Assembly (NCBI GenBank): GCA_934524985.1
Contig: CAKSYT010000015.1
Location: forward strand, 1 to 40,805
DNA: 40,805 nucleotides
Origin: an uncultured Faecalibacterium sp.
GTDB taxonomy: Bacteria > Bacillota > Clostridia > Oscillospirales > Ruminococcaceae
Direction of reading: 5' to 3'
Part shown: piece by piece, positions 21,324 through 29,222 of the stretch
Layout: each line of letters starts with the position of its first letter
How positions within the stretch are numbered: the stretch's first letter is position 1
Translations under genes and position numbers: made by a program
The notes under the pieces: generated by a model
Told to the model about the DNA's origin: nothing
The model's database searches: none
The model's input: only the letters and a program-made list of their open reading frames with translations

Positions 21324-21353
21324 TTGACAAAACCGTCTCTTGTCGGATATAAT
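21324..21353 (+). promoter_or_regulatory. Promoter of lipoprotein gene 1
   Basis: TTGACA at 21324-21329 and TATAAT at 21348-21353 are 18 bp apart. Confidence 0.85.
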
Positions 21354-21440
21354 CAGGGCAGAAAGGCAACAACGGTTGCGCAAAGCCTTTCAAGAAAAAA
21401 GAAACATAACCACAAAAACGCTGATTGGAGGGATACCCTT

Positions 21441-21944
21441 ATGAAGAACCTGAAAAAATTCGTAGCCCTGCTGCTGGCAGGTGTGATGGCTATGGTACTG
21501 TTCACCGCCTGTTCCGGCGGCGGTAACAGCAGCAATCTGAAAGAGGACACAACGGCTGAGGCTAAGGTTTTGGGCAAGTATAGCACCAGCGCTGCAAGCG
21601 TAGATAATAACAAAGCCCTGAAGGCTGAAGCAGAAAAGTTCTTGGACGAGAAGATCAATGCTTCTGGCAGCATCTTTGGTTATAAGTTCGTTCTTGGCGG
21701 CGAAGTAAAGGGTAAGGACAAAGAGTATCTGACGGTTCTCGTGGCGACGAACTTCTCCTATGAGGATACGATACTGGGTCTCATTCTGAACGAGATTTCG
21801 AAGAAGGTCAATACCGATGCGAATGTCAATATTAACCAGAATGGCGCTTGGACAGACATTGGCGTTGTTGTCAAGGGAGATAGCAAGCATAGCTACATGG
21901 CAATTGCGTTCAAGGTCAAGAACCCCAACTACAAGGGCAAATAA
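21441..21944 (+). CDS. Small predicted lipoprotein 1
   Basis: The ATG at 21441 follows GGAGGG and gives 167 aa. The signal MKNLKKFVALLLAGVMAMV plus lipobox FTAC (Cys24) is nearly the same as in the next gene. The mature part is lysine-rich and ends with a strand pair (GAWTDIGVVVKG, then YMAIAFKVKN). I do not recognise the domain. The codon use is more AT-rich than in flanking genes. It has its own promoter and terminator. Confidence 0.8.
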   Translation: MKNLKKFVALLLAGVMAMVLFTACSGGGNSSNLKEDTTAEAKVLGKYSTSAASVDNNKALKAEAEKFLDEKINASGSIFGYKFVLGGEVKGKDKEYLTVLVATNFSYEDTILGLILNEISKKVNTDANVNINQNGAWTDIGVVVKGDSKHSYMAIAFKVKNPNYKGK

Positions 21945-22311: not shown

Positions 22312-22860
22312 ATGAAAAAGTTAAAGCGTCTTGCGGCTGTTCTGCTGGCCGGTATCATGGCACTGGCACTGTTCACCGCCTGCAGCGACAGCAGCGACCC
22401 CGGCAACCCGGAGTTTGATACCAAGGTGGAAAGAGCCTATCTGGAGGCGCTGAATAAGGCGTTTAAGACGAGCTTTGAAAACGATGACGCCATCCGGGCG
22501 CTGGCGGTCACCCACATCACCGAGAAACACGGCGCGGACAGCCTGACCGGCAGTGCACGCTGCAAAACAGAAGGCGACGAAAAGACCGTGGTGCGGCAGG
22601 TGCAGCTCTGCTATGATACAAAAAGCAGCAAGCCGGATGCCTTTGTGCCGCTTTTCTATCAGGCCGCAGCCGCGCAGACCATCACGGCGAACCGGCTCAA
22701 TGTTCAAGCCCTGCTCCGCACCGTGAAAGATGAGTGTGGCGGCGCAGAGGAAAACAGCATAACGCTGGAGCTTACCGCGCTAGGTGTCGGCGCAAGGACC
22801 ATTGGCGGCAAGACCTATGTTGCCATCGGCTTTGAACTGACCAACATCACCGCACAGTAA
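22312..22860 (+). CDS. Small predicted lipoprotein 2
   Basis: 182 aa with an AGGAG site. The signal MKKLKRLAAVLLAGIMALAL plus lipobox FTAC (Cys24) mirrors lipoprotein 1. The ending is also alike: a TALGVGARTIGG turn, then TYVAIGFELTN against YMAIAFKVKN. The middle parts differ, so the genes look like diverged paralogues. Function is unknown. It would sit on the outer membrane-facing surface as an anchored protein. It is a single-gene unit with its own promoter and terminator. Confidence 0.8.
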   Translation: MKKLKRLAAVLLAGIMALALFTACSDSSDPGNPEFDTKVERAYLEALNKAFKTSFENDDAIRALAVTHITEKHGADSLTGSARCKTEGDEKTVVRQVQLCYDTKSSKPDAFVPLFYQAAAAQTITANRLNVQALLRTVKDECGGAEENSITLELTALGVGARTIGGKTYVAIGFELTNITAQ

Positions 22861-23058: not shown

Positions 23059-23087
23059 GTGACAAACTCCGCCCGCTGTGGTACAAT
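23059..23087 (+). promoter_or_regulatory. Promoter of the jetABC operon
   Basis: GTGACA at 23059-23064 and TACAAT at 23082-23087 are 17 bp apart, 36 bases before jetA. The AGAAAGG ribosome site precedes the ATG. Confidence 0.65.
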
Positions 23088-23123
23088 AAAAGGGTATCGA
23101 ACTTACACAGAAAGGACGTTTCC

Positions 23124-24554
23124 ATGCAGCTGTTTGAACTGGTCAGCCCACGGCTGTTCCGCCCGCTGGCGGGGCCGAACCGGGCGTTTTATGCAGAGCT
23201 TTTGCTGCTGCTCTGGGAGGAGTGCCGCCATACGGCAGATTACAGCATTTCCCGCGCCGAAGCCGTCTCCCGCGCCGAGGATTATTTTGCCGCGCTGGCA
23301 AAGCCGCTGGCGCTGGATGCCGACGGCGCGGGCGATGAGGACGAGCAGCCCACCCGCGACCCCCACACGCTGGCGGTGGGCTTTCTGCTGCGTCTGCGCC
23401 GCACCGGCTGGCTGGAGGAGCAGCCCGGCAGCTACGAAAGCGAGCCCACCCTTGCCTTTATGCCGGAGGTCACCCCGCTGCTGGACGCGCTGGAAGAAAT
23501 ACTGAACCCCCGGGTGGTCACCTATACCGGCAAGCTGTATAAGGCGTGGCAGCTGCTGGGCAGCATCGGACAGGAAAAAAGCCCCTACGAGAACGTGCTG
23601 CGGGAGGTGGCGGCAGACCTTGAGACTTTGAACAAGTCCCTGCGCGCCCTCAACGCCTCCATCGGGCATTACATCGACCGCCTGACCCATAACCGCACCC
23701 CGCAGGAGGTGCTGGAACTGTTCGACCAGTATGAGGAAAAGGTGGTGGCGGCGGCGTACCACCGCTTTAAAACCAGCGATAACCTGTTCAATTATCGCGC
23801 CTATCTGGAAGAAGAGCTGGACGACTGCGAGCAGAACCAGCTGCCGCGCTTAGCGCTGGATTACGCCCGGGTGGAGCGCTGCGCCCCCGGCGAGGCGGCA
23901 CCCCGGGTGCGTGCCCTTATCCAGCAGCAGCGGGACGCGCTGGAAGAGATGAGCACCCTGATGAAGGAGATCGATGCCAGCCACATCCGCTACCGCAAGC
24001 GTGCGGTGCAGCGGGCACAGTTTTTGCTGCTGAGCGACCGCTCGGCGCAGGGCAGCGTCACCGCCCTGCTGCGCCGCTATGCGGAGGACATCCGCAGCCC
24101 GGAGCAGCTGTTCGAGCCGGACGACGGCCCGGTGGCGGCGCGGCTGCACCTGTACCCGGCGGCAGTGTTCGGCGCAAAGCCGCTGTATCCCCCCGCCGCG
24201 CCCCGCACCGAAGCACCCCTTGCCCCGGTGCGCACCGAGCCCCTCGACCCCGACCGGCTGCGGCAGGAGCAGCAGCTGCTGCTGGACTACGCCCGCCTTG
24301 CCGTCACCGAGGAAAACGTGGCGCTGCTGGCGCAGCAGGCATTGGCTGCCCGCCCGCAGGTGAACGCCTCCACCCTTGTGGAGGAATACCCGGGCGATTT
24401 TACAGGCATCATCGGCCTGCACACCTATTCCCAGTCGCCGCACCGGGAGTATGATATCACCCTGACCGGAAACTGGGTGGAGCGCGGCGGCTTCCGGTTT
24501 CAGGATTTTGTCCTGACCCGCCGCAAGGAGGTAAACACGGATGGCAACCATTGA
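23124..24554 (+). CDS. jetA: Wadjet-like condensin subunit JetA (DUF5716 type, kleisin/MukF-like)
   Basis: 476 aa. The N-terminus (LFRPLAGPNRAFYAELLLLL, then LAVGFLLRLRRTGWLEEQPG and a SYESEPTLAFMPE segment) follows the winged-helix pattern of the JetA family. Residues about 150-310 are helical and rich in heptads, as expected for a kleisin linking SMC heads. In Wadjet and Mks complexes this subunit bridges the ATPase dimer with JetB. The operon context supports the call: jetB overlaps its end by 14 bases and the SMC-like jetC follows. Known Wadjet systems restrict plasmids by extruding and cutting circular DNA; without JetD this one may differ. Confidence 0.85.
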   Translation: MQLFELVSPRLFRPLAGPNRAFYAELLLLLWEECRHTADYSISRAEAVSRAEDYFAALAKPLALDADGAGDEDEQPTRDPHTLAVGFLLRLRRTGWLEEQPGSYESEPTLAFMPEVTPLLDALEEILNPRVVTYTGKLYKAWQLLGSIGQEKSPYENVLREVAADLETLNKSLRALNASIGHYIDRLTHNRTPQEVLELFDQYEEKVVAAAYHRFKTSDNLFNYRAYLEEELDDCEQNQLPRLALDYARVERCAPGEAAPRVRALIQQQRDALEEMSTLMKEIDASHIRYRKRAVQRAQFLLLSDRSAQGSVTALLRRYAEDIRSPEQLFEPDDGPVAARLHLYPAAVFGAKPLYPPAAPRTEAPLAPVRTEPLDPDRLRQEQQLLLDYARLAVTEENVALLAQQALAARPQVNASTLVEEYPGDFTGIIGLHTYSQSPHREYDITLTGNWVERGGFRFQDFVLTRRKEVNTDGNH

Positions 24555-25149
24555 TCTGCTGGAAGAAACCGCAAACTATCTGCTCAACCACTGCTTTGTG
24601 CTGGGCTGCGTAGAGGAACAGCGGGCAAAATATCTGTATATTCAGGATCACCTCAACGAGGTGCGTGCGGTGTTCAAACCGCTGGGCTATGCGGTGCTTT
24701 TGTACCCCGCACCCATGCAGGCGGCGGCGCTGGTCAACGAGCACGAGGGCAGTCAGGCACGGCTGCTCAAGTACGAAAGCATCCTGCTGCTGGTGCTGCG
24801 GCTTTTGTACCTGCAAAAGCGGGAAAGCCTTGCCGCCAGCGCGGACGAGGTGCTGGTGACCGTAGAAGAAGTACAGGCCGAATTGCAAAAGATGAACCTG
24901 CCCCGCAAACTGGATCAGCAAACGCTGGAAAAGCTCATGCGCACCCTGCGCCGGTACAATCTGGCGCGTCCGGTGGGACGGCTCTCCGGGCTGGACAGCC
25001 GCATCGAGGTATTTCCCACGGTGCTGCTGGCGCTGCCGGACGCTGACCTTGCGGATGCCGCCGCCGAGAGCGCCCGCACCCGCACCGAGCTTGGCCTGTA
25101 CGAGCGCCCGGAGGGCGCAGACATGGAAGCAGGGGAGGGTGAAGCATGA
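24541..25149 (+). CDS. jetB: Wadjet-like condensin subunit JetB (DUF4194, MukE/MksE-like)
   Basis: 202 aa, overlapping jetA by 14 bases and jetC by ATGA. The pattern matches DUF4194: an early FVLGCVEEQRAKYLYIQDHL segment, then a YESILLLVLRLLYLQKRESL helix, a LPRKLDQQTLEKLMRTLRRY winged-helix stretch and a terminal acid-rich tail. The protein would dimerise and bind the kleisin JetA as the KITE subunit of the complex. It is a small, entirely cytosolic protein with no membrane segment. The tight overlaps indicate coupled translation and fixed stoichiometry. Confidence 0.87.
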   Translation: MATIDLLEETANYLLNHCFVLGCVEEQRAKYLYIQDHLNEVRAVFKPLGYAVLLYPAPMQAAALVNEHEGSQARLLKYESILLLVLRLLYLQKRESLAASADEVLVTVEEVQAELQKMNLPRKLDQQTLEKLMRTLRRYNLARPVGRLSGLDSRIEVFPTVLLALPDADLADAAAESARTRTELGLYERPEGADMEAGEGEA

Positions 25150-28100
25150 TCGAACTCAAGCGCCTGAAACTTATCAACTGGCACAACTTTGAAAATACTA
25201 CCTTCGACTGCGCCCGCCTGACCTATATGATCGGCGTGAACGCCGTGGGCAAGACCACCATTCTGGACGCCATCCGCTACTGCCTGACCACCAACCGCAA
25301 CTTCAATGCGCTGGGCAATAAAAAGAGCGGACGCACCCTGCAGGGCTCTGTCCACGCCAAGCAGCGCGGCGAAAACGCCTACCGCCGCCCGGGGCACACC
25401 GTGGCGTATATCGGGGCGGAGTTCTGGGACAGCGTAAAACACACCAGCTTTGTCATCGCGGTGCGGGTGGAGTCCGAGGGCCCCATGCAGGAACTGCACC
25501 CCGGCGACCAGACATGGTATATCTCGGAGGACGGCATCACGCTGGAACAGCTGCCCTTTATTGACCCGCGCACCGGTGCGCCCAGCGCCAAGGAGGACTT
25601 CAAGCCCGCCGAGGGGCGGCTTTCCTACACCCGCAGCCCCAGCGAAGCGCGGGACCGCATCTGCCGCGCACTGGGCATCGGGCGCGCAGCCAGCCCGCTG
25701 GGTAAAAAGTTCAACGAGGTGTTCCAGATGGGCACCAGCATGGACGAGATCCCGAACTTCCGGGAGTTTCTGTACCAGTACATCCTCCCGCAGCCGGAAC
25801 TGGACTTGGAAGCCTTGCAGGGTGACCGTTTGGAGCTGGAAAACCTGCACGCCGTGCTGGCGGAAGCCCAGACCCGCGCCGATGCGCTGGACGAGATCGT
25901 GCGTTTTGGCCGCGAAGCCACCGAAAAGCAGACCGAAGCCCTTGTGAACCGCGGTGCCGCCCTGCTGGCGCGGGCTGCTGCCGATGCCGGGGAAAAGGCT
26001 GTCTGGCAGGAGCGGGTGGAAGCCGGACGCCGCCAGCAGGAGACGCTGCGCACCCGCTACGCCGAGGCCAAGACCGCCGAAGCGGAAGCCCGCCGCGCCT
26101 ACCTGACCGCCCACAGCGCCGCCGGTGCCAGCGGCGAGGGCCGCGCACTGGACGCCCTCAGCGAGGAACTGGCGCACCGGCAGACCGCACTGGATGCCGC
26201 CGCCCGCAAGGCCGACACCGCTGAAAAAGCTGCCGAAAAGACCGGCAACCTGCTGGCGGTGCTGCGCCGCAGCGGCTTTGCTGCCGGGCAGAAGATGGCC
26301 GACCTGACCCCCGACACCCTGCCCGCCCTGACCGACTGGCTGACCGCACAGGAAAAGCCGCTGGAAGAAGCCTATTTTGCCGCCCGGCAGCACACCGCCG
26401 CTTTGCAGCGGCAGCAGACCGAGAAGCGCGCCGAGCTGGACGCCGTGTCCGGCGGCAAGTGGGTGTACCCCCACGGCGACGCTGCCACCCGGGTGCGGGA
26501 TGCCGTGAACGCCGAGCTGAAAAGCCGGGGCATGGAGCCGGACGCCCGCATCTTCTGCGAACTGCTGAACGTGGAGGACGAAAGCTGGCAGGACTGCGTG
26601 GAAGCCTGTCTGGGCGACCGCCGGTTCGATATCCTTGTGCCGCCCGCCCACTACGCCGCCGCAAAGAGCGCCTTTGTGGCGCTGAAGGATAAGGTGGGGC
26701 CCATCAGCCTGCTGGACACCCCGGGTCTGCGCAAGGCCAACCGCCGCGCCGACACCGCCCCCGCCGACAGTCTGGCGGCACAGGTCACCAGCGAAAACCC
26801 GCTGGCCGCGCAGTACGCCGACACCATTCTGCGCCGCATCGTCTGCTGCGACACCCCCGACACGCTGGAAAACTACCCCGACAGCGCCACCCGTGACCTG
26901 TTGCGCCACCATCCCTTCCGCTTGGAGCGTCTGCGCACCCCGCAGCGCTATATCGGCTTGGAAGCCCGCCGCGCCCGCGCCGGGGCACTGGCAGGGGAGA
27001 TGAACGCCCTTGCCGAGGAGGTGCGCGCCGCCGCACAGGCAGAGCAGAACCTGAAAGCCGCATACAGCCAGTACCAGACCCTTTTGCGCGGCACCACGCT
27101 GGAAGAGCTTGCCGCTTTGTGGGACGCCCGCGCCGCCCTGACCGCCGCTCGCGCGGCGGCGGAGGAACAGGCCGCAAAGCTGGCGGAGTGCCGCGAGAAC
27201 CCCCTGCTGCAGCAGCTGTACAAGGAGGAAGAGGTGCGCGAAGCCGCATGGGAAGCCGCCCGCACTGCCGTGGAGCAGACCGGCGGCGACCTGCGCGTGT
27301 GCGAAAAACAGATCACCTCCTGCGAGACCGAGCAGCAAAAAGCAGTGGACACCGCCGAAAAGAGCGCACAGGCCGCCGAGAGCTTTTTTGCCGCCCACCC
27401 GCTGGTGGAGCCGCTCTCCCGCAGCCGTCAGCAGGCGCTCACCGGGCCGGATAAGTCTCCCCGCGCCGCCGCGCAGGCCGCCGAAAAGGCACAGGCCAAG
27501 CTGGACGATGCCCTGACCGTCTACCTGAACAGCACGCTGGAACCGGCGCAGAGAGCCTATAACCAGCGCTATGTCTGCGATTACCCCTTGGGGCTTGCCG
27601 GGCTGGAGCAGTACCGCGCCCAGCACGAAAGCCTTGTGCGCATCGATTTGGAGCGCTACGCCGCCCGTCTGGAGCAGGCGCAGCGGGACTGCAAGGACCG
27701 CTTCCGCAAGGATATCCTGTTCCGCATGAAGGACGATATCTTCAACGCCCGGCGGCAGTTCCGGGAACTGAACAAGGTCATGGAGCAGCTGACCTACGGC
27801 GAGGAGGTCTACCGCTTTGAACTGGAGCCCAGCCGCGACCCGCAGCTGGCGGCGTTCTATCAGGTCATTGTGGATAAGGGCAACCAGCAGATGACCGAGG
27901 GCGATTCTCTGGACAATCTTGCCGCTACCGCCGACCCCGCCTACGAGCGTCAGGTGGACGAACTGATGGAAAAGATCATGGCAGACGTGGACGAGAACAC
28001 CCGCGCCCGGCAGGAGGGACGCACCGCTGCCGGTGCCACCCTTTCGGACTATGTGGACTACCGCACCTATCTGGACTACGATATCAAGGTGACCAATCAG

Positions 28101-28445
28101 GTCACCGGGCAGCAGGCGTATCTTTCCCGCGTCAGCCGCGATTCCTCCGGCGGCGAGAATCAGGCGCCCTTCTATGTGGCCATCTGCGCCAGCCTTCTGC
28201 AAATTTACCAGAAGAGCGAAAACAGCATCCGTCTGGTGCTGCTGGACGAAGCCTTCAGCAAGATGACCAGCGACCGCATCCGCCCCATGATGGAGCTGTT
28301 CCGCCGCCTGCAATTGCAGGTGCTGCTCATCTCCACCGTGGAAAAGAGCACCGCCATCCAGCCCTATTGCGATATCACCTACTCCATCGTCCGCCACGGC
28401 GACGCCAACGCCATCGCGCCCTTTGTCCGCCTTACGGAGAAATAA
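25146..28445 (+). CDS. jetC: Wadjet-like SMC ATPase JetC (MukB/MksB-like)
   Basis: 1099 aa. Walker A is GVNAVGKTT at residues 30-38. Long coiled coils rich in Ala/Glu lie at about 245-460 and 600-870, separated by a hinge-like globular part (about 465-590, ARIFCELLNVEDESWQDCVE onward). The ABC signature SSGGENQ is at 1000-1006 and Walker B is LLLDEAF with D1034/E1035. All ATPase motifs are intact, so the motor should work. The protein would form a dimer that loops DNA using ATP. It overlaps jetB by 4 bases. GC content is high, as in the rest of the chromosome. After its TAA only 15 bases separate it from the nuclease-like gene; no jetD follows. Confidence 0.92.
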   Translation: MIELKRLKLINWHNFENTTFDCARLTYMIGVNAVGKTTILDAIRYCLTTNRNFNALGNKKSGRTLQGSVHAKQRGENAYRRPGHTVAYIGAEFWDSVKHTSFVIAVRVESEGPMQELHPGDQTWYISEDGITLEQLPFIDPRTGAPSAKEDFKPAEGRLSYTRSPSEARDRICRALGIGRAASPLGKKFNEVFQMGTSMDEIPNFREFLYQYILPQPELDLEALQGDRLELENLHAVLAEAQTRADALDEIVRFGREATEKQTEALVNRGAALLARAAADAGEKAVWQERVEAGRRQQETLRTRYAEAKTAEAEARRAYLTAHSAAGASGEGRALDALSEELAHRQTALDAAARKADTAEKAAEKTGNLLAVLRRSGFAAGQKMADLTPDTLPALTDWLTAQEKPLEEAYFAARQHTAALQRQQTEKRAELDAVSGGKWVYPHGDAATRVRDAVNAELKSRGMEPDARIFCELLNVEDESWQDCVEACLGDRRFDILVPPAHYAAAKSAFVALKDKVGPISLLDTPGLRKANRRADTAPADSLAAQVTSENPLAAQYADTILRRIVCCDTPDTLENYPDSATRDLLRHHPFRLERLRTPQRYIGLEARRARAGALAGEMNALAEEVRAAAQAEQNLKAAYSQYQTLLRGTTLEELAALWDARAALTAARAAAEEQAAKLAECRENPLLQQLYKEEEVREAAWEAARTAVEQTGGDLRVCEKQITSCETEQQKAVDTAEKSAQAAESFFAAHPLVEPLSRSRQQALTGPDKSPRAAAQAAEKAQAKLDDALTVYLNSTLEPAQRAYNQRYVCDYPLGLAGLEQYRAQHESLVRIDLERYAARLEQAQRDCKDRFRKDILFRMKDDIFNARRQFRELNKVMEQLTYGEEVYRFELEPSRDPQLAAFYQVIVDKGNQQMTEGDSLDNLAATADPAYERQVDELMEKIMADVDENTRARQEGRTAAGATLSDYVDYRTYLDYDIKVTNQVTGQQAYLSRVSRDSSGGENQAPFYVAICASLLQIYQKSENSIRLVLLDEAFSKMTSDRIRPMMELFRRLQLQVLLISTVEKSTAIQPYCDITYSIVRHGDANAIAPFVRLTEK

Positions 28446-28460
28446 AAGAAAGGGTGTAGA

Positions 28461-28829
28461 ATGGAAAAAACAAGACGAGTTGGAGTTCTGACAAAACGTG
28501 TGATCGAACTGCTGGAATTGGAGTTGCCGGAAGGAAAAGATATTCTTCTTGGCGATTCCAACATTGGGCACATGACAACACGCCATCCTGAGGACTTTGC
28601 ATTATATGGAGAGTACATCCCGGATATTTTAAGAGAACCGGATTATGTGGCGCAAAATAAAAAGGATAACTCCATTGAATATGTCCGAGAAGTAGAAATA
28701 GACCATGTGTTTGTCAAAGTTGCGGTACGGGTGTCTACAAAAGGACAACTTTTTGCAAGGTCGGTTTACAGATTAAATCCAAATCGTGTCCGCAGCTTTA
28801 TCGACAAGGGAAATTTGAAAAAATATTGA
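28461..28829 (+). CDS. Small PBECR-type (Barnase/EndoU/ColicinE5-D/RelE-fold) nuclease-like protein
   Basis: 122 aa beginning 15 bp after jetC, with GAAAGGG as ribosome site. From memory of the family, the layout fits PBECR domains: IGHMTTRHPEDFALYGEYIP with the conserved H-P, then ILREPDYV, then strands V-F-V-K-V-A-V-R-V and a Q-L-F-A-R-S-V-Y-R-L stretch with a possible catalytic Ser/Tyr. These folds include ribonucleases and toxins. The gene is far richer in A and T than jetABC (TTA, AGA and AAA codons), which suggests separate acquisition. It occupies the place of jetD, but it lacks the Toprim-like nuclease of JetD. No immunity or antitoxin protein is adjacent. Confidence 0.65.
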   Translation: MEKTRRVGVLTKRVIELLELELPEGKDILLGDSNIGHMTTRHPEDFALYGEYIPDILREPDYVAQNKKDNSIEYVREVEIDHVFVKVAVRVSTKGQLFARSVYRLNPNRVRSFIDKGNLKKY

Positions 28830-28843
28830 CGCGTTATCGCGTG

Positions 28844-28871
28844 TTGACATTTTGAATTCCTATGATATAAT
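28844..28871 (+). promoter_or_regulatory. Promoter of a small structured RNA unit
   Basis: TTGACA at 28844-28849 and TATAAT at 28866-28871 are 16 bp apart, 15 bases after the nuclease-like gene. No ORF with a ribosome site follows before the terminator. Confidence 0.8.
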
Positions 28872-28877
28872 AATAGT

Positions 28878-29008
28878 GGATAGAGATGAGCAACGGAGGA
28901 CGGAACAGGCAGCCGTCGCCCATTGTTAGGAGATGTGGGAATCGTCACCCCACCCTTGCTCAAAAAAGAGAACGCCCGCCGCATTCGCAGCGGGTGTTCT
29001 CTTTTTTC
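28878..29008 (+). ncRNA. Candidate structured small RNA, about 130 nt, unrecognised
   Basis: Between a consensus promoter and a strong terminator lies a compact fold. An outer stem GAGCAA/TTGCTC (28888-28893/28956-28961) closes two hairpins, GACGG/CCGTC with loop AACAGGCAG (28899-28917) and GTGGG/CCCAC with loop AATCGTCAC (28935-28953). The terminator (28962-29008) pairs AAAAAAGAGAAC with GTTCTCTTTTTT, plus an inner CCCGC/GCGGG. I do not match it to SRP RNA, 6S RNA, tmRNA or a riboswitch I know. It could be a free small RNA or a regulatory leader that ends early. Confidence 0.65.
28962..29008 (+). terminator. Terminator of the small RNA unit
   Basis: A 12-bp outer stem and 5-bp inner stem end in TTTTTT. 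The A run on the left side makes it potentially two-way. Confidence 0.9.
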
Positions 29009-29047
29009 GTGTTTTACACTTTGCGGCAGAATGATGCAAAACGGAGC

Positions 29048-29076
29048 TTGACATAAAAAATAAACTTTGTTATACT
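29048..29076 (+). promoter_or_regulatory. Promoter of the second MATE gene
   Basis: TTGACA at 29048-29053 and TATACT at 29071-29076 are 17 bp apart. The transcript would start near 29083 and carry a leader of about 170 bases. Confidence 0.85.
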
Positions 29077-29113
29077 GTTTTTCGCTCATCGGAGGGCTGT
29101 TTTAACGTAATTG

Positions 29114-29222
29114 AAAGGCCGGATAAGATGTCACCGTTCGTGCTTCCCGGAGGCTGTGGGCACCGTAGTGCCGCAGCAGAAAAGGGAACGCACCGGAACG
29201 GTGGTTCTTATCCGGCCTTTTT
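29114..29222 (+). terminator. Rod-like hairpin leader ending in a T run (attenuator candidate)
   Basis: One continuous fold: AAAGGCCGGATAAG pairs with CTTATCCGGCCTTT (29114-29127/29207-29220, 14 bp perfect). Then CACCGTTC pairs with GAACGGTG, GTGCTTCCC with GGGAACGCAC (one bulge), and CTG-GGCAC with GTGCC-CAG at the tip. The right side runs into TTTTT. It sits wholly between promoter and start codon, so default termination before the MATE gene is likely, with an unknown signal for read-through. Confidence 0.75.

Follow-up and report, generated by a model that had tools for sequence, protein, structure and literature searches.

A PBECR nuclease-fold gene and a skipping-rope RNA inserted behind jetC in Faecalibacterium: a likely mobile toxin-antitoxin pair of type III-like character

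The DNA studied here (the window) is a 40,805-nucleotide stretch from an uncultured Faecalibacterium sp. (assembly GCA_934524985.1, contig CAKSYT010000015.1, positions 1 to 40,805 of the forward strand), in which the genes jetA, jetB and jetC are followed by a short gene for a protein of the PBECR nuclease fold and by a small structured RNA, the skipping-rope RNA (Rfam family RF02924), which was reportedly described by Weinberg et al. in 2017. The window holds one copy of the RNA, which begins 60 nt beyond the end of the PBECR gene, and its promoter sits between the PBECR stop codon and the RNA (Table 1). Folded together with its terminator, the RNA has a z-score of -4.49. The promoter scan of the window found no promoter-like site between position 28400 and the PBECR gene, so that this gene would be read from the jetABC transcript. 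In blastn comparisons with three sister genomes (loci L039, L040, which equals L001, and L042, which equals L008), homology ends near 28437-28445 and picks up at 29021; these genomes pass from the end of jetC straight to the counterpart of window position 29021, so that the 575 bp holding PBECR and RNA were inserted here. Genome G031 has no PBECR at this site but keeps the RNA with its terminator there, at 90% identity. Similar modules lie elsewhere behind the gene for ThiC (L013) and that for formate-tetrahydrofolate ligase (fhs; L017), and lone (orphan) RNAs are found behind genes for a SPOUT methyltransferase (L010), a dehydratase (L014) and tRNA-Pro (L015).

The PBECR open reading frame (ORF) scores 82.9 bits against PF18812 (PBECR3, cut-off 30) and 41.5 bits against PF18810 (PBECR2, cut-off 27.1). 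In the available passages of PMC5512222, PBECR domains are described as predicted RNases with a His plus Thr/Ser configuration. His37 is invariant in both of our PBECR alignments, Pro60 is invariant in one and kept in at least 90% of the other, and Ser101, at the Ser/Thr position, is invariant in the 16 rows of alignment A1 but not in the 34 of A5; judged from these alignments, the pattern of His37 and Ser101 fits the described configuration. The AlphaFold2 model of the protein is confident (predicted local distance difference test 94.5), and its two best fold matches in the PDB are a chain of a contact-dependent inhibition system (7m5f, E 0.035) and the RNase toxin BrnT (3u97, E 0.084), which weakly support an RNase-toxin fold class for the modelled protein. 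A search of the PDB with the protein sequence returned nothing useful. Used alone as a probe in the genus, PF18812 found 1 of 31 genomes, below the cut-off, because the RNA-linked copies of the genus are too diverged; an alignment profile was used instead.

The nuclease gene and the RNA are found together far beyond this genome. When 391 genomes of the class were searched protein-first, the RNA lay downstream on the same strand in 45 of 48 PBECR genes (49 rows taken as 48 genes; 30/30 loci in one subset and 15/18 in the other), with a gap of 33-147 nt, and no RNA row fell within 300 nt on the 5' side of PBECR or on the other strand. The three PBECR genes without a recognised RNA are those of G391 and G570 and a 47-residue fragment in G519; by eye, G570 has an RNA-like but unrecognised stretch in the right place. 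Among 297 genomes of the family the RNA follows 19 of 20 PBECR genes, the exception being G133 (the RNA of G057 is cut by the contig end, and the PBECR of G194 is a 35-residue piece), which brings both sets together to 63 of 67 distinct genes, G094 being in both. In the genus, the RNA follows PBECR in 4 of 6 places, and the other two end near contig edges. Searched RNA-first, a PBECR ORF or ORF fragment stands upstream in 7 of 14 RNA places of the genus, and a PBECR ORF in 12 of the 29 family loci examined (of 42 rows). On viral contigs a PBECR ORF ends at most 200 nt upstream of the RNA, on the same strand, in 53/92 loci (type A 7/15, type B 28/39, type C 14/24, type D 4/14), these loci coming from four pattern scans and including some near copies; conversely, 53 of the 55 PBECR ORFs among 6011 viral-contig ORFs adjoin the RNA and two lie elsewhere. 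A first protein scan of the viral contigs had found no relative, and BLASTN of one RNA against the phage collection gave no match. A protein-only search yielded 20 plasmid or phage records with PBECR (14 plasmids, 6 phages); all eight that were examined (6/14 plasmids, 2/6 phages) carry RF02924 above the cut-off beside PBECR. These counts exclude chance as the source of the pairing. The association is also asymmetric: in the class set 3 of 48 nucleases lack the RNA, whereas 26 of 72 RNA rows lack the nuclease (four of the 26 being below the Rfam cut-off). Some orphan loci (L011, L016, L088, L090, L100 and L179) retain the promoter and a scrap of the toxin end. In a minority of loci, for example L081, L084, L105, L161, L176 and L255, two to three RNA copies stand in tandem.

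Two further observations concern the neighbourhood of these pairs. Immediately before PBECR, three plasmids (one of Fusobacterium, one of Bacillus and that of Planococcus) have a gene for a weakly helix-turn-helix (HTH)-like protein that stays under the Pfam cut-offs and, as far as gene content goes, may be a third, regulatory part of the plasmid modules. At L094:690-1586, a weak RF02924-like match (28 bits, below the cut-off) lies after a Gp49-like/HTH_3 gene pair of the HigBA kind.

The signals around the RNA point to a transcription unit separate from that of the nuclease. A promoter matching at least 10 of 12 consensus positions precedes the RNA in 67/70 loci with a full PBECR ORF, compared with 20/65 others, among which L012, L021 and L088, having only a PBECR fragment, were placed; it was likewise found in 27/30 class loci and, in the 85 nt scanned, in 5/8 plasmid or phage records. 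In the large group of LYK-type nucleases, the final codons themselves contain the -35 box, TTTACA: all 47 LYK-type C-termini use CTT TAC, while elsewhere in the same domains CTT accounts for 135 of 648 Leu codons and TAC for 119 of 453 Tyr codons, and a -10 box (at least 5 of 6 positions) follows 17 nt on in 41 of the 47, although these loci include related ones and are not 47 independent events. In three of the eight plasmid or phage records (pTA1060 and plasmids of B. velezensis and Planococcus) the RNA is convergent to PBECR, on the other strand, and has a promoter-like site that matches at 10-11 of 12 positions; there it is therefore a gene of its own and not an element of a 3' untranslated region (UTR).

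The RNA has a covarying fold. Among 48 type B RNAs, 98.8% of pair cells hold standard pairs, as against 29-42% when slid, and 15 of 26 pairs vary on both sides, among them 4 of the 6 in the helix that joins hairpin loops 1 and 3 into a pseudoknot. This count covers 48 of 49 sequences, L090 having been dropped for its longer insert, and a further L084 copy is not included. In type A, to which the RNA of the window belongs, the 13 pairs counted are formed in every one of the 22 rows, and five of them change on both sides; the outer stem, whose 3' ends are unaligned, was omitted. The structures were written by hand on single types and are thus partly derived from the sequences counted. RNAalifold, run on an alignment of mixed types, recovered one helix, a poor result due to misaligned 3' ends.

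The type of the RNA also goes with the clade of the nuclease. The tree used here holds 71 paired PBECR domains; of the 86 non-redundant matches, 15 were set aside as fragments or for want of a searched RNA. On it, 4 changes, the minimum, account for the five RNA types, compared with a mean of 33.8 after shuffling. RNA and protein distances are correlated overall (Mantel r 0.79, 0/2000 permutations) and within type A (0.63), type B (0.27) and type D (0.80). Type A unites the window with Bacillus, Planococcus and Fusobacterium plasmids, and RNA type therefore follows the nuclease and not the host.

Of 21 long phage proteins that end in PBECR, 10 were tested, and 9 of these also carry a Phage_min_cap2, Phage_Mu_F or SPP1_portal domain; the PBECR of the window is a solo protein of 122 residues and has no such N-terminal part, which its phage relatives do have. 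These proteins resemble the MuF polymorphic toxins in being C-terminal fusions to MuF, minor capsid or portal proteins with a candidate protection element directly downstream, but that element is here an RNA, whereas the immunity reported in the available passages of PMC5576092 is a small ORF, found after 89.4% of 191 MuF toxin genes. Skipping-rope RNAs without PBECR also lie behind MuF genes with a different C-terminus (L093 and L099, and L102 and L115 with DUF6883), and at L121 and L128 two RNAs of different type stand in tandem without PBECR, as judged by eye. By analogy, such MuF-adjacent and tandem RNAs remind us of the orphan immunity genes of polymorphic toxins.

We consider it likely that PBECR and the skipping-rope RNA form a mobile type III-like toxin-antitoxin (TA) pair, inserted here at the 3' end of jetC, and that the phage forms combine a toxin with RNA immunity to it. 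Nuclease gene and RNA are physically paired, the RNA has promoter and terminator signals of its own and a covarying, pseudoknotted fold, and its type matches the nuclease clade; together with plasmid carriage, tandem copies and the asymmetry between lone RNAs and lone nucleases, this is what a toxin with an RNA antitoxin would show. From this we infer that the RNA binds and silences the PBECR protein. The latter would act as an RNase that cuts cellular RNA and would be bound and blocked by the skipping-rope RNA, of which a strong promoter of its own supplies an excess; the nuclease would then be freed when the module is lost or when some insult halts RNA synthesis. In the window the nuclease would be read from the jetABC transcript and the RNA made separately, and in phages the RNA would protect the lysogen or the producer, serving as RNA immunity to a virion-borne toxin. 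With less confidence, we also lean towards the broader view that skipping-rope RNAs, as a family, provide RNA immunity by neutralising BECR-fold RNases, in stand-alone TA modules on plasmids and chromosomes as well as in phage capsid or portal toxins, and that the RNA is kept by phages and hosts without the toxin. The likeness to the type III systems ToxIN, CptIN and TenpIN lies in a predicted endoribonuclease beside a small pseudoknotted RNA, in the occurrence on plasmids, phages and chromosomes and in an RNA type that tracks the toxin clade (type III features as given in passages of PMC5086642). A pseudoknotted RNA adjoining the presumed toxin gene is indeed found here, with covariation in type B and near invariance in type A. 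Unlike in those systems, the toxin is PBECR, of the BECR fold, and not ToxN/AbiQ, it is also fused to phage capsid or portal proteins, and the RNA is sometimes convergent.

A number of observations weigh against a type III-like TA pair. The order of the parts is toxin then RNA, whereas in type III systems the antitoxin repeats stand upstream under one promoter, with a terminator between; the RNA here has its own promoter, which often overlaps the toxin ORF, and instead of a repeat array the window holds a single RNA copy. G391 and G570 carry the PBECR gene and no recognised RNA. Some orphan RNAs sit directly behind housekeeping genes (SPOUT methyltransferase, dehydratase, tRNA-Pro, jetC), which a pure antitoxin need not do, and no 10/12 promoter precedes 45/65 of the RNA loci that lack a full PBECR ORF; three plasmid or phage records (L210, L213, L215) score just 8-9 of 12 in the 85 nt scanned. 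In type A, the window's type, further pair types are not above shuffles (7 versus 8.3, with 500/500 shuffles as high), and its pseudoknot, a 3-bp loop-loop helix paired in all 22 rows, varies at one pair and on one side only. RNA and protein distances are uncorrelated in type C (14 pairs, r 0.03, 732/2000), and much of the overall correlation would be expected from linkage alone. Finally, the PDB fold search with the PBECR model gave no match at E <= 0.001, the weak matches having a TM-score of about 0.4.

Other roles for the RNA have to be weighed against the same data. Were it a substrate or guide of PBECR, for example one that lends specificity to its cutting of foreign or host RNA, and not an inhibitor, the same pairing, covariation and clade match would be expected, and the variable 3-4 nt stretch in the loop-loop helix could be taken as a guide; yet the variable loop bases are paired internally and are therefore not free to guide, RNA orphans are common and lone nucleases rare, and orphans keep promoter and RNA after toxin decay (L011, L016, L088, L100, L179), which fits protection and not a cofactor. 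We regard this as unlikely. Very improbable, in our view, is a cis-acting role of the RNA within the nuclease mRNA, as a 3' stabiliser, terminator or attenuator: its usual position 30-100 nt downstream on the same strand would suit such an element, as would the terminator that follows it in the window, but it has promoter sites of its own, lies on the opposite strand in 3/8 plasmid or phage records and occurs in orphan and tandem copies (L255, L084, L081). Its opposite-strand copies and own promoter sites led us to reject a 3' UTR or terminator of the nuclease mRNA as a general rule. We give equally little credence to a recombination site of a mobile cassette, like an integron attC, with the pairing reflecting mobility only. 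The discrete insertion in the window and the several positions directly behind host genes are what such a site would produce, but compensatory change keeps an RNA fold with a pseudoknot, the promoter sets the RNA start just before the structure, the 575-bp insert is too small for a recombinase, and the recurring neighbour is one protein family.

The initial annotation proposed that the PBECR gene might belong to a different system, as the effector of a JetD-less subtype of Wadjet (JetABCD) in which JetABC would extrude plasmid DNA and PBECR would cut it. Its account of the genes was confirmed: jetA, jetB and jetC are intact and overlapping (open frames over 23124-28445, with Pfam and PADLOC matches), and the 122-residue PBECR gene, with its PBECR3 match, begins 15 bp past the jetC stop on the same strand. 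No jetD is linked: from jetC up to the MATE gene (29253), the jet strand has no ORF longer than that of 122 residues (antisense ORFs were taken without a profile scan); JetD frames in the genus have 416-430 residues, and no ORF of such length adjoins jetABC in the window. The locus thus has JetA, JetB and JetC, but neither a linked JetD Toprim nuclease nor a conserved PBECR subunit. While adjacency and the missing jetD favour a Wadjet effector, PBECR stands beside none of the 15 genus orthologs of this jetC (at least 68% identity, in 15 of 31 genomes; the flanks span about 1.5 kb, except in L053, where the contig stops some 330 nt past jetC), sister loci show the empty site, PBECR elsewhere follows thiC, fhs, phage and plasmid genes and nearly always has the RNA, and its family is a predicted RNase. 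On the ortholog counts and empty sites we rejected the effector as a conserved system, and it seems to us the least credible of the alternatives. What survives of that annotation is its fallback, a condensin-like complex beside an unrelated gene; its headline of a new Wadjet effector does not.

The data support jetABC here as a separate, JetD-less condensin-like complex. All eight JetD_C matches in the 31 genus genomes adjoin other jetC copies (positions compared by reading), seven of them divergent (27-38% identity by aligned piece) and one, in G021, 45% identical; the latter suggests that jetD was present in the ancestral locus and then lost in the clade of the window, where jetABC without jetD is a clade trait. 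In lacking the nuclease, the JetABC-type complex resembles MksBEF of Pseudomonas, from which it differs in its occurrence in Faecalibacterium, in 15/31 species genomes. A conserved ORF of 77-79 residues, with no Pfam family above the cut-off, follows jetC in 4 of 9 JetD-less relatives (nine named loci that share identical stretches with 9 of the 15 orthologs and are likely the same genomes), and it is this ORF rather than PBECR that is the recurrent small neighbour of jetABC. Two similar lipoprotein-like ORFs precede jetA (21324-21944 and 22312-22860), both with an LFTACS-type lipobox by eye and no Pfam family above the cut-off. On the other side, in the region before the MATE gene (window 29048-29222), a promoter-like site (11/12) is followed by a long stem (AAGGCCGGATAAG...CTTATCCGGCC) with a T-run at its end; the stem is kept in L001 and L008, has no Rfam match and, from its sequence, is a candidate attenuator or riboswitch.

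Table 1. Features of the inserted module, its neighbours and related loci (positions in the window unless a locus is named)
Feature	Position	Strand	Basis or remark
PBECR3 nuclease-fold protein, 122 aa, predicted RNase toxin	28461-28829	+	PF18812 2.1e-23; alignments; AlphaFold2
Promoter of the RNA	28844-28871	+	TTGACA-16-TATAAT, TG before -10, 12/12, sigma-70-type
Skipping-rope RNA (RF02924), type A, proposed RNA antitoxin	28889-28960	+	55.4 bits versus gathering cut-off 36.7, E=1e-10
Strong terminator hairpin with T-run	28963-29006	+	Fold and sequence scan
Inserted module	28446-29020	+	575 bp, absent from sister loci; 43% GC versus 65% for jetABC
jetA (kleisin)	23124-24554	+	PF18982 1.4e-79; PADLOC JetA1 4.7e-245; neighbour, outside the nuclease-RNA pair
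jetB (KITE)	24541-25149	+	PF13835 (DUF4194) 4.5e-17, PF21980 MksE 4.1e-6; PADLOC JetB1; neighbour
jetC (SMC ATPase)	25146-28445	+	PF13558 (SbcC_Walker_B) 1.3e-22, PF13555, PF06470; PADLOC JetC1 E=0; neighbour
HTH-like genes before PBECR	L210:2742-2984, L211:4051-4968, L212:2068-2970		
77-79 aa ORF copies	L002:11347-11580, L004:11312-11545, L007:8004-8237, L009:11332-11571		

The window RNA and its relatives are members of RF02924 (55.4 bits for the former). The available passages on this family report a structured RNA with a pseudoknot (PMC7779021) that makes up about 1% of the phage noncoding RNAs used by a host predictor (PMC8501573), and neither set of passages reports a partner or role. 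The PBECR proteins belong to the same families, PBECR2 (PF18810) and PBECR3 (PF18812), as those of phage polyvalent proteins, with solo and MuF- or portal-fused forms; the passages of PMC5512222 predict RNase activity and name no RNA partner. Across titles, abstracts and passages of the open-access literature, which did not cover the original description of the RNA, we found no paper linking it with PBECR, and the main text of a 2025 survey of BECR toxins (PMC11980606), by term search and in passages, contains no PBECR, type III or RNA antitoxin.

For the biology of the locus, a false lead is removed: jetABC here is a JetD-less condensin-like complex and not a Wadjet system with a new effector. 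The Rfam RNA family gains a partner and a testable role, and a nuclease family annotated by fold alone gains a likely control element. If the RNA is an antidote, RNA antitoxins would extend to BECR-fold toxins and to phage-borne polymorphic toxins, with the order of the genes turned round and a promoter embedded in the final codons of the toxin. If this holds true, it would mean RNA-based immunity where, in the literature passages available, only protein immunity was described.

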